This document shows, one piece after another, positions 60,698-62,976 of a DNA stretch of 64,000 nt. Made by a program: the position numbers and the translations under genes. Numbering within the stretch: the first letter of the stretch is position 1; every line of letters starts with the position of its first letter. The notes beneath the pieces were generated by a model that searched no databases, was not told the DNA's origin, and saw only the letters and a program-made list of their open reading frames with translations. Origin of the DNA: Cryobacterium luteum (GTDB taxonomy: Bacteria > Actinomycetota > Actinomycetes > Actinomycetales > Microbacteriaceae); NCBI RefSeq assembly GCF_900110125.1, contig NZ_FOCN01000009.1:1-64000 (forward strand). Reading direction: 5' to 3'.

Positions 60698-61095
60698 CTG
60701 GGACCGACGGGTTTCTGCACACCGGCGATATCGCCACGGTCAGCGACATCGGCGAGGTGACCATCGTCGATCGCAGCAAGGAACTGATCAAATACAAGGG
60801 GTACCAGATCGCGCCGGCCGAGCTCGAGGCCCTGCTGCTGACCCATCCGCAGATCGCGGATGCGGCGGTGATCGGGGTAGCGGATGCCGACGGCCAGGAA
60901 TTTCCCAAAGCCTACGTCGTCGTCGTGGCCGAGTCGGCCGTCACTGCCGAGGAGGTCATGGCGTACGTGACCGAGCGGGTCGCCCCGCACAAAAAGGTGC
61001 GCGCGGTCGAGTTCATCGACGCGATCCTCAAGTCAGCGTCGGGCAAGATCCTGCGCAAGGACCTGCGCGCGCGGGAACGTGCCGCCGCCCAGTAG
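60698..61095 (+). pseudogene. 5'-truncated acyl-CoA ligase (C-terminal domain only)
   Basis: Translating through the lipoprotein stop gives, immediately downstream, the C-terminal part of an adenylate-forming acyl-CoA ligase: TGTDGFLHTGDIATVSDIG, then VDRSKELIKYKGYQIAPAEL, and the catalytic Lys in KSASGKILRKDLR. Only about 130 of roughly 520 residues remain; the AMP-binding N-terminal domain is missing. A GTG at 60757 could still start a 112-residue fragment but has no evident function. The junction coincides with the lipoprotein stop, as if the cassette had replaced the 5' part. Confidence 0.85.
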
Positions 61096-61125
61096 CGCCG
61101 AATACCATACGACGCCGCACAGTTG

Positions 61126-61202
61126 CTCACTTTGGCCTGACTCATTTTCTCACTGATAGCTATAGTGAGACTACAGTGAGGATAAAGTGAGGGCGCAGTG
61201 AA
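61126..61202 (+). promoter_or_regulatory. 11-bp iteron array overlapping the AlbA_2 gene start
   Basis: AGTGAG occurs at 61164, 61175 and 61186, and AGTGAA at 61197: four copies exactly 11 bp apart, the last overlapping the GTG start codon. On the other side of the central ATAGCTAT (61156-61163) the inverted form appears as CTCACT at 61149 and 61126 and CTGACT at 61137. This makes a two-sided operator-like array. The ribosome-binding site GAGGG lies within it. Confidence 0.8.
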
Positions 61203-62976
61203 GACTAGTCAGGGATCGCTCAGAGAAGTCATCAGCAGCATTCGACGCGCTGGAACGGATCTGAGACAGATCGAGGTGAAAGCTGCCGTCCGCGAGTTGC
61301 CCAAGAGTCTCTGGCCCACAGTCAGCGCCTTCAGCAACCATGGTGGCGGGCTCATCATTCTCGGTCTCTCCGAAGAAAATGGCTTCAACCCAGCCGAGGG
61401 GTTTGATGCAGCCCGCATCCGTGATTCAATCTCCGATGCATTTCGGCCGCGCGGCCCTTTCGAACCAGCTGGCCCCATCAGTCCACGCCCCGTCGGCGCG
61501 ATCGACATAGTCGACGTCGACGGCGCCCAGGTCGTGATCGTCGACGTTGCCGAGCTCCCCCCGGGAAGCAAGCCGTCATACGTCACGAATCAAGGCGTCG
61601 AGGCTGGCACCTACGAGCGGGTGGGTGATGGTGATCGGCGCATGAGTACCTACGCAATATTTCTCCTGACCTCGGACCGCGGTCAACCTCGTGACGACAG
61701 CGCACTCGTTGCCGGCTCGACGATCACGGACTTGGACCCCGCCCTCGTCGATAAATTCATTGCACGGCTGAGAAGAACGCGCGCGCGATCGATCGCGGAT
61801 CTGACGGCAACAGCGGATATTCTGCAGCGGCACAATGTCATCGGTACCGGCGGAGTTCTGACGCGCGCGGGGCTCCTGACGCTGGGGCGCTACCCCCAGC
61901 AGTACTTCCCTCAGCTGATGATCACATTTGCGGCCTACCCGGGACGCACTAAAGCCGATGTCGTCGGCGACATTCGGATGCTCGACCGACAGGTCGTTGA
62001 GGGTCCGATCCCCGTGATGGTCGACGATGCCGTTCGTGCGGTCCTGAGCAATCTCAAGGTGCGGCGCGTTTCCCGTGGTGCCGGAGCTGCGGATGAACCA
62101 GAAATCCCGGTGGACGCCGTGCGCGAGGCCATTGCCAATGCCCTCACCCATCGCGACTACAGCGACTTCGCGCTTGGCGACCAAGTGCGAGTGGAGATTT
62201 ACCCGGACCGGCTGGAAGTCTGGAGCCCGGGTGGCATCTGGGGCGGTCGCAGGGTTGTAGATCTTTTCGACGGCAGCTCTCGCTCTCGCAATCAAGTGCT
62301 CGCGAGTTTGCTCACAGAAGTCCCCTTCCCCGACAGAGACGAAACCGTCTGTGAAAACGCTGGGTCGGGAATCTTGCGGATGGCTGGTGTGCTGGGTGGA
62401 ATGGGACTCCCCGCTCCGCGTTTCACCGCTACGTCCACCAGCATGACCGTCACCCTCGACCGGCATGGATTGCTCACACCGGAGATGTCCTCCTGGCTGT
62501 CGGGCATCGGGGCAGCGTCGCTCAATCCGGATGCGCAGCGAACTCTGGTTCTGGTGCATCGGGGCTACGACGTCGAAGATCAACTTTTACGGGCCCAATT
62601 TGGCATGGATTCCACCGACGCGCGACTGATTTTGCGAGCACTCGTGGCCGACGGCTGGCTTCGATTCCCATCGCAACCTGGCGGCGCCTACCGCCCGGGC
62701 CCAGGACTCCTCGATGCCGAGTTGAACGAAAACACCCTGTTCTCGGACGTTGTGGTGCCACCGACCCAACACCCTGAAGGTAGTCTCGATGAGAGGATTC
62801 TGAAGGCCATCGGGCAAAATGATGAACTCAGCATCAACGAGCTGGTGACAATTACACAAAGCAGCACAAACTCCCTGCGCCCTCGCTTGCGAGTACTCAT
62901 CGAACAGGGTGCCCTGGTTCCGACTGCTCCACCACAGAGCCGCAATCGGCGCTATCGACGGCCACCCGGCGAGTAA
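61198..62976 (+). CDS. Schlafen/AlbA_2-domain protein with HATPase_c_4-like region
   Basis: A 592-residue protein. Residues 20-140 form an AlbA_2 (Schlafen-type, formerly AAA_4) domain: IEVKAAVRELPKSLWPTVSA, FSNHGGGLIILGLSEENGF. The centre has the conserved block VDAVREAIANALTHRDYSDF (about 300-320) with YPDRLEVWSPGGIWGG, as in HATPase_c_4. The C-terminus has two winged-helix-like segments (DSTDARLILRALVADGWLRF; DELSINELVTITQSSTNSLR). This is the layout of putative transcriptional regulators and of some defence proteins. The GTG start lies inside an 11-bp iteron array, suggesting autoregulation. Codon and base usage look somewhat less GC-rich than the neighbours. Confidence 0.82.
   Translation: MKTSQGSLREVISSIRRAGTDLRQIEVKAAVRELPKSLWPTVSAFSNHGGGLIILGLSEENGFNPAEGFDAARIRDSISDAFRPRGPFEPAGPISPRPVGAIDIVDVDGAQVVIVDVAELPPGSKPSYVTNQGVEAGTYERVGDGDRRMSTYAIFLLTSDRGQPRDDSALVAGSTITDLDPALVDKFIARLRRTRARSIADLTATADILQRHNVIGTGGVLTRAGLLTLGRYPQQYFPQLMITFAAYPGRTKADVVGDIRMLDRQVVEGPIPVMVDDAVRAVLSNLKVRRVSRGAGAADEPEIPVDAVREAIANALTHRDYSDFALGDQVRVEIYPDRLEVWSPGGIWGGRRVVDLFDGSSRSRNQVLASLLTEVPFPDRDETVCENAGSGILRMAGVLGGMGLPAPRFTATSTSMTVTLDRHGLLTPEMSSWLSGIGAASLNPDAQRTLVLVHRGYDVEDQLLRAQFGMDSTDARLILRALVADGWLRFPSQPGGAYRPGPGLLDAELNENTLFSDVVVPPTQHPEGSLDERILKAIGQNDELSINELVTITQSSTNSLRPRLRVLIEQGALVPTAPPQSRNRRYRRPPGE

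Follow-up and report, generated by a model that had tools for sequence, protein, structure and literature searches.

Helically phased repeats before a Schlafen-ATPase-winged-helix gene of Cryobacterium luteum as a probable self-operator

The stretch analysed here, called the window, comprises 64,000 nucleotides of Cryobacterium luteum (RefSeq assembly GCF_900110125.1, contig NZ_FOCN01000009.1, positions 1 to 64,000 of the forward strand). It contains a gene for a 592-residue protein with a Schlafen/AlbA_2 domain, a GHKL-type ATPase domain and a C-terminal winged helix, and before this gene an array of short repeats (61126-61202) that runs into its start codon. The features of the locus, with the means by which each was recognised, are as follows.

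61126-61131, minus strand: unit L1, CTCACT, inverted copy (sequence, repeat finder)
61137-61142, minus strand: unit L2, CTGACT, one mismatch, identical with the -35-like hexamer (sequence, promoter scan)
61149-61154, minus strand: unit L3, CTCACT, inverted copy (sequence, repeat finder)
61161-61166, plus strand: -10-like hexamer TATAGT, 18 bp after CTGACT (promoter scan)
61164-61169, plus strand: unit R1, AGTGAG (sequence, repeat finder, genome pattern count)
61175-61180, plus strand: unit R2, AGTGAG (sequence, repeat finder, genome pattern count)
61186-61191, plus strand: unit R3, AGTGAG, whose GAG opens a Shine-Dalgarno-like GAGGG at 61189-61193 (sequence, repeat finder, genome pattern count)
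61197-61202, plus strand: unit R4, AGTGAA, spanning the GTG start codon (sequence, repeat finder)
61198-62976, plus strand: gene for the 592-residue SLFN_AlbA_2 / HATPase_c_4 / winged-helix protein (open reading frame, Pfam, starts of relatives)
61264-61647, plus strand: Schlafen/AlbA_2 domain, residues 23-150 (Pfam, structure and profile alignment)
62176-62457, plus strand: HATPase_c_4, a GHKL-type ATPase domain, residues 327-420 (Pfam, conservation)
62791-62958, plus strand: C-terminal winged helix, residues 532-587, with SSTNSLRPRLRVLIE as recognition helix, the domain that may read the array (profile, model, fold search)

The array consists of seven hexamer units, three of the CTCACT type followed by four of the AGTGAG type, with unit-to-unit steps of 11, 12, 15, 11, 11 and 11 bp. 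An earlier note, made from the letters of the sequence, had claimed AGTGAG-type units at exact 11-bp steps (61164, 61175, 61186, 61197) and inverted copies on the other side; both are indeed present, the latter as CTCACT at 61126, CTGACT at 61137 and CTCACT at 61149. The left-hand steps are 11 and 12 bp, and the halves are separated by 15 bp (61149 to 61164). A chain of four hexamers with at most one mismatch and 11-bp steps was reached in none of 5000 dinucleotide shuffles of the 162-bp region; the generic lag score of the array region had p = 0.005, which is the floor of 200 shuffles, and its inverted-repeat score p = 0.035. In the 3.83-Mb genome, AGTGAG-N5-AGTGAG occurs twice, both times at the array, and AGTGA-N6-AGTGA five times, three of them at the array.

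The only sigma70-like promoter found in the region 61080-61230 is CTGACT-18-TATAGT (61137-61166; one found, compared to the shuffle mean of 0.1). Its -35-like hexamer is the deviant left unit L2, its -10-like hexamer overlaps the first right unit R1, and the array covers this site and, in the Cryobacterium clade, the GTG start as well. The position of the start codon at 61198 matches the ATG starts of the relatives L020, L022 and L024. The unit over the start codon, also claimed earlier, is found in all three full-length Cryobacterium genes, but not in these ATG-start relatives.

These three genes are the one in the window and copies 97% and 85% identical to it. The array of the window differs from that of the 97%-identical relative at 1 of its 42 unit positions and 3 of its 35 spacer positions, compared to 8 of 38 positions in the stretch immediately upstream, and the alignment with the 85%-identical relative (C. 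melibiosiphilum, L014) demonstrates the same array layout plus one extra right-hand unit. The array centre reads ATAGCTAT in the window, GAGAGCTATAG in the 97% relative and GACAACCACAG in the 85% relative, so that the central element proposed in the earlier note is conserved in neither. As the units are kept in the relatives while ATAGCTAT is lost, the units, rather than the array centre, seem to be held by selection.

The possibility that the repeat is peculiar to the Cryobacterium genome was ruled out, as homologues carry arrays too. Nearest-relative, family, order and class searches yielded 135 homologue loci, from which fragments, second copies, rows with internal stops and some low-ranked rows had been left aside; merging of similar promoters reduced them to 118. 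Four start positions (L052, L053, L066, L087) were corrected after the first pass, a locus with no start codon found (L086) had already been merged away, and three loci with short proteins (L119, L136, L148) were kept as promoters and excluded from protein counts. The controls for the lag, spacing and shuffle tests were flanks and gene bodies of the same loci, mostly coding DNA, to which we added the promoters of those 70 of 143 genes from 150 kb of an Arthrobacter plasmid that have at least 100 bp free upstream; a Rhodococcus stretch that lacked annotation was set aside.

With corrected starts and shuffles of each own region, a helix-phased direct or an inverted repeat at p<=0.01 was observed in 80 of 118 homologue promoters, compared to 5 of 200 windows from flanks and gene bodies and, among the promoters of other genes, 1 of 70 (Fisher 2e-22 for the homologue and other-gene promoters); at p<=0.05 the respective counts are 97/118, 24/200 and 10/70. 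Direct repeats alone were found in 63 of 118 homologue promoters and in 0 of 70 promoters of other genes. By identity over the first 430 residues, p<=0.01 was reached by 15/18 loci at >=45%, 29/43 at 40-45%, 24/37 at 35-40% and 12/20 at 30-35%. With the provisional starts, the direct or inverted score exceeded the control 99th percentile in 61 of 118 promoters and in 10 of 472 control windows.

The repeat lags of the 118 promoters peak at 10-12 and 20-24 bp: the 11-bp lag was counted in 19 of 118 promoters, compared to 5 of 472 control windows, and the lags of 12 bp (29 vs 17), 21 bp (24 vs 6) and 22 bp (15 vs 3) in the same two sets. The lag rises in the 472 control windows are small and mostly at multiples of 3. 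Among the same-strand spacings of the 35 strongest arrays, 202 of 282 fall within 1.6 bp of multiples of 10.9, compared to 72 of 217 in the top-scoring fifth of control windows. A stricter test, counting copies of one 7-8-mer, placed 35 of 118 promoters above the control 95th percentile and 21 above the 99th; it is probably weaker than the lag test owing to the many short or degenerate units.

The sequence of the unit varies by lineage, while the helical spacing is retained. The clade of the Cryobacterium gene has AGTGA; other units are TTCGCAC at 11 bp (L017), TTCCCAC (L029), TTACCAC (L069), CATGCTA at 12 bp (L077, L085), ACAACTT (L078) and AAATGTAA (L152, L156). The layouts vary as well: two-sided in Cryobacterium, palindromes that alternate with a period of 21-22 bp in L049, L054 and L058, and a run on one side only in L030. 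A single family-wide conserved motif was ruled out, as the units differ between lineages; of the 11-bp AGTGAG spacing that the earlier note expected to find conserved in homologues, the helical spacing recurs, but the hexamer is not family-wide.

Arrays also occur before more distant homologues, including virus-borne ones. The alignment scan yielded 15 virus-borne relatives; of the scans with single proteins, those with two proteins found none and that with a third found two satellite copies. In Streptococcus satellite phages, ATCTTGAGATT repeats stand at 11 bp before the AlbA_2 homologue, and another satellite has GTGTGCGAAT at 12 bp; on a Chlorohelix plasmid, just after parB, AATCCCGCA(C/T)T recurs at 11 bp, accompanied by inverted copies, and two further phage or provirus contigs have arrays as well. 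The Streptococcus satellite phage or provirus records with ATCTTGAGATT at 11-bp steps are L167, L188, L189 and L190; in Javan341 (L167) four ATCTTGAGATT stand in a row, with copies beside the start codon, and in both annotated records (L167, L190) an integrase gene follows the AlbA_2 homologue. In a further set of distant homologues, comprising L035, L037, L039, L042, L165 (phage Squirty) and L171 (Gordonia phage), the palindrome TACTCTAAAA..TTTTAGAGTA, whole or in part, replaces the array at the start codon, and only L039 and L165 reach p<=0.01; the two phage copies (L165, L171) lie near an integrase gene. Six of seven plasmid homologues lie <=25 bp from, or overlap, an upstream gene (TrlF, BREX brxC, DUF4062, LexA-type, helix-turn-helix). 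A phased direct repeat at p<=0.01 was found in 0 of the seven, and one of them (L195) has an inverted repeat at p = 0.010; the lack of direct repeats would fit an array that is tied to the own promoter of the gene.

The protein itself matches SLFN_AlbA_2 (PF04326) at residues 23-150 with 37.1 bits (cut-off 25.3) and HATPase_c_4 (PF13749) with 71.6 bits (cut-off 26). N314 and H318, just before the latter domain, and G345 and G391, within it, are identical in 131 of 131 homologues; we take these residues to be the GHKL motifs. In the family profile alignment, D21, E26 and E59 align with E205, E210 and D248 of SLFN13, in a numbering that uses an inferred 13-residue offset, and 129 of the 131 homologue proteins, a set that counts near-copies, keep this three-carboxylate centre. 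Mutation of these SLFN13 residues diminished RNase activity (PMC5862951). Because AlbA_2 keeps the centre, the Cryobacterium protein is more aptly described as a probable RNase effector carrying its own operator-reading domain, and the label of a regulator, given to such proteins in the earlier note, is incomplete. The only aligned homologue that reads P at the third carboxylate (L095 / L114, one gene in two overlapping loci) may lack nuclease activity; its promoter nonetheless has an 11-bp repeat (p = 0.005).

The winged helix was recognised at residues 532-587 with a profile whose seeds include the Cryobacterium protein itself, and in fold searches it matches MarR- and AspA-type winged helices (Z 9 to 10, about 60 residues, tied rows). 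With the same profile, at an independent E-value (i-E) <=0.05, a winged helix after residue 400 was found in 108 of 131 homologue proteins. Tandem winged helices were considered and rejected: two profile matches looked common, but at i-E<=0.05 only 10 of 131 proteins have them, the Cryobacterium protein having a single match, and the weak structural model gives no more than a hint of a second winged helix, in its predicted helices at 444-484. A single-sequence search of the PDB detected no close relative at E<=0.01, although the profile search did find relatives; NCBIfam had no family match for the protein, and PADLOC gave only partial matches (pAgo, 1.7e-15 over residues 178-421, plus two Aga models).

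The comparisons of array units with winged helices covered the 75 of 118 loci with a complete winged helix, operator similarity being measured by repeated 5-mers. Operator similarity correlates with the winged helix when the first 430 residues are controlled for (partial Mantel 0.215, p = 0.0005), compared to 0.055 (p = 0.085) with the first 430 residues when the winged helix is controlled for, and to 0.080 for the control region in the same comparison. At least three AGTGA were found in 22 of 23 loci with an LRP-type recognition helix ([LIVT]R[PQR]xL[RK]) and in 3 of 52 others, in classes that were drawn after seeing the sequences and redrawn for the independent-pair test (L082 out, L115 in). 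Three members of the AGTGA clade without the LRP-type helix (L016, L052, L053) are also without AGTGA. The co-variation of unit and recognition helix is suggestive, and the protein likely binds its own array.

The AGTGA pairs at array spacing lie mostly at the gene (25 of 41 in nine genomes): 4/4 in G190, 2/2 in G114, 1/1 in G278, 4/5 in G109, 3/4 in G178, 3/5 in G000, 3/5 in G050, 5/14 in G021 and 0/1 in G514. The clusters thus mark the gene, but single sites elsewhere could be bound too.

Several observations weigh against the interpretation of the array as an operator read by its own gene product. In 38 of 118 homologue promoters neither a phased direct nor an inverted repeat was found at p<=0.01, and 21 of 118 have nothing even at p<=0.05; homologues without the repeats, named in the earlier note as grounds for abandoning its claim, therefore exist, and the claim has mostly survived them. 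Only 14 of 49 more distant loci reach p<=0.01, in a test from which L044, L170 and L176 were excluded as fragments or for an uncertain start, and L174 and L182 for want of upstream sequence. The winged helix was not detected in 23 of 131 proteins, some of which are truncated where the retrieved sequence ends, and the structural model is weak overall (predicted local distance difference test, pLDDT, 64.5; 5 sequences). As for the co-variation, the tree places AGTGA mostly in one clade; the LRP-type helix gives just two independent pairs, both concordant, which makes significance impossible; the tree-independent pair test for the SR helix gave no support; in 37 sister pairs the partial r is 0.24 (p = 0.074); and L031 and L143 have AGTGA units with a different recognition helix. 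Strict proof that the recognition helix dictates the unit was dropped, given the post-hoc classes, the single clade and the weak independent contrasts.

The exclusivity of the site is also limited. In C. melibiosiphilum (G021), 9 of the 14 unit pairs are found away from the gene, a triple among them. In eight relatives with the palindromic layout, 14 of 41 TCACT-N4-7-AGTGA sites, a looser pattern than the AGTGA pair, lie at the gene, and in several of these genomes the totals do not clearly exceed the reversed-pattern control. The C. melibiosiphilum triple, with three AGTGA at 11-bp steps far from the gene (G021:C90:15514-15540), could be a second target or chance. Some of the off-gene palindromic sites are one recurring 15-mer, TCACTTGACCAGTGA, present away from the gene in one to three copies in 6 of 8 genomes of the order (G494, G689, G764, G797, G729, G607), which looks like the site of another conserved regulator. 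Three further TCACT-AGTGA palindromes lie 340-460 bp past the 3' end of the gene at G791:C45:32180-32300, perhaps forming a second operator.

Self-regulation nevertheless remains the best reading, because the array lies on a promoter-like site and the encoded protein has a winged helix at its C-terminus; we consider it probable that the array is a self-operator of a one-protein module, whose winged helix would bind the array and repress its own promoter. The arrays could instead be read by a separate regulator encoded elsewhere, as the small repressors RptR and BrxR act on other defence islands. BrxR is a stand-alone repressor, and some unit pairs are located away from the gene; yet none of the four neighbouring genes scanned with Pfam matches a regulator family (three have other matches, one has no match), operators resemble each other more in step with the winged helix of the adjacent protein than with its core, and under a shared trans-acting regulator one would expect the same unit in all lineages, all of which renders this alternative unlikely.

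Much less probable still is an action of the repeats in RNA, as a folded leader, a leader bound by AlbA_2/Schlafen, or an RNA of the type III toxin-antitoxin kind. In type III systems repeated RNA antitoxins precede RNase toxins, and in the array the upstream and downstream repeats have opposite orientations. Schlafen domains, moreover, act on RNA (PMC5862951). Against this, the left half of the array would be untranscribed if the promoter-like hexamers inside it are used, the spacing is quantised in DNA helical turns, and some arrays are direct-repeat runs that do not pair (L030); the search for an RNA element in Rfam gave a single match, far below the gathering score, and this candidate was rejected. 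We assign an equally slight chance to a non-functional expansion of repeats by slippage near a rapidly evolving accessory gene. Near-perfect tandem runs in L088 and L030, the variable number of units and the extra unit in L014 would agree with it, but the units stay while spacers and flanks change, inverted halves and palindromes alternating at 21-22 bp are not products of slippage, and phased repeats are rare in control windows and other promoters.

Under the self-operator interpretation, one polypeptide would unite a Schlafen-type RNase (AlbA_2), a GHKL-type ATPase and a C-terminal winged helix. Via the winged helix, its subunits would occupy the 11-bp-spaced units on one face of the DNA helix and cover the -35 and -10 hexamers and, in Cryobacterium, the start codon, and this occupancy would keep a potentially harmful nuclease at low expression. 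The binding along the array is probably cooperative, since the number and layout of the units vary while the helical phase is kept, and the polymerisation along the DNA that the earlier note proposed would be compatible with the spacing. A change in the ATPase linked to infection or to nucleotides would release the repressor and/or unleash the nuclease; phage infection as the trigger is a guess, made from the BREX link of the same architecture and from the Schlafen-linked anti-phage modules. The module is probably defensive; its binding to the array, RNase activity, defence role, repression, cooperativity and trigger we infer.

Parts of this scheme are in print: the domain architecture (PMC12839542), direct-repeat repressors of defence genes (PMC12255303) and winged-helix spreading (PMC5120986). 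A bacterial Schlafen RNase fused to a minimal histidine kinase and a winged helix-turn-helix is described as BREX/BR-associated, with a predicted RNase effector role, and prokaryotic Schlafen-linked systems as anti-phage modules (PMC12839542). That fusion has the same domain order as the Cryobacterium protein, with Schlafen/AlbA_2, GHKL-type ATPase and winged helix; however, it is presented as a backup effector, with no mention of operators in the accessible text, whereas the Cryobacterium gene is solitary and has a promoter-like site and a phased array of its own. The best full-length fold match is a solved structure, 3LMM (DIP2311 of Corynebacterium diphtheriae; Foldseek E 4e-23, 18% identity), which is also the best profile match (E 9.5e-26) and aligns with the model over 393 residues (VIA Z 18.8, root mean square deviation, rmsd, 10.4). 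It is annotated as "Uncharacterized protein", and the high rmsd indicates that the domains are not arranged alike in the Cryobacterium model.

RptR, linked to defence genes, is a repressor of its own promoter, where it binds several direct repeats, with the -10 box overlapped by two of them; it is a small stand-alone protein, and its 9-bp repeats with TAGCTA are conserved across diverse bacteria (PMC12255303). In the Cryobacterium protein, by contrast, effector and DNA-binding domain would share one chain, and the unit changes from lineage to lineage. An RptR-type operator, that is, several 9-bp TAGCTA repeats, was not found in the array, where the one TAGCTA, located in the middle, is lost in the two nearest relatives. 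AspA of plasmid pNOB8 is a winged-helix protein that occupies a site before its own gene and from there extends along the DNA in helical form (PMC5120986). The C-terminal winged helix of the Cryobacterium protein has a similar fold (68 residues aligned to 5k5q, Z 9.7, rmsd 2.8, a rank shared with many other winged helices), and AspA-related structures, 5k5q and 4rs8, are among the matches of the fold searches; AspA differs in being a segregation protein with a 23-bp palindrome and no effector domain (PMC5120986). The BrxR/WYL regulator, like the proposed module, represses anti-phage genes and binds repeats, but is a separate protein with inverted repeats and a WYL ligand domain (PMC9122601). 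AlbA_2 proteins have been regarded as nucleoid-associated or putatively DNA-binding (PMC10561277, PMC5445408), and one of these papers links the domain to mobile elements (PMC10561277); unlike there, the DNA reader proposed here is the winged helix and not AlbA_2. Among the titles and abstracts listed from the accessible literature, no report of phased, lineage-specific self-operators before Schlafen-ATPase-winged-helix genes was found.

The gene is accessory within the genus: a search of 57 genomes gave any match (E<=0.001) in 8 and a full-length close copy in only 3. A short remnant of the gene (46-49 residues) in C. glaciale (L006 / L019) points to its gain and loss within the genus. Directly upstream of the array, at 60757-61095 of the window, lies what is probably a broken AMP-ligase gene, with only a 112-residue AMP-binding_C fragment of the enzyme present. 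A distant paralogue in the same genome (L011, contig C29; 32% over part) has in its promoter an AT-rich inverted repeat (p = 0.005) with a different unit.

For the family as a whole, the arrays suggest that a single protein can serve as effector, sensor and repressor and do without a separate antitoxin. No explanation of how bacterial Schlafen-type effectors are silenced was found in the accessible literature, and the guess that AlbA_2 proteins are regulators can now be replaced by a testable mechanism. The widespread and easily recognised operator predicts the binding site for many family members, and the natural pairs of operators and recognition helices are offered for tests of specificity. 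More tentatively, and with doubt outweighing confidence, such genes could across bacteria be single-gene modules of an effector with its own repressor, whose arrays diversify together with the reading helix, so that the copies are mutually insulated; the array may then even be a docking track, on which the assembled subunits would be inactive as nucleases while the gene is silenced, and phage-caused changes of nucleotides or of the array would release both.
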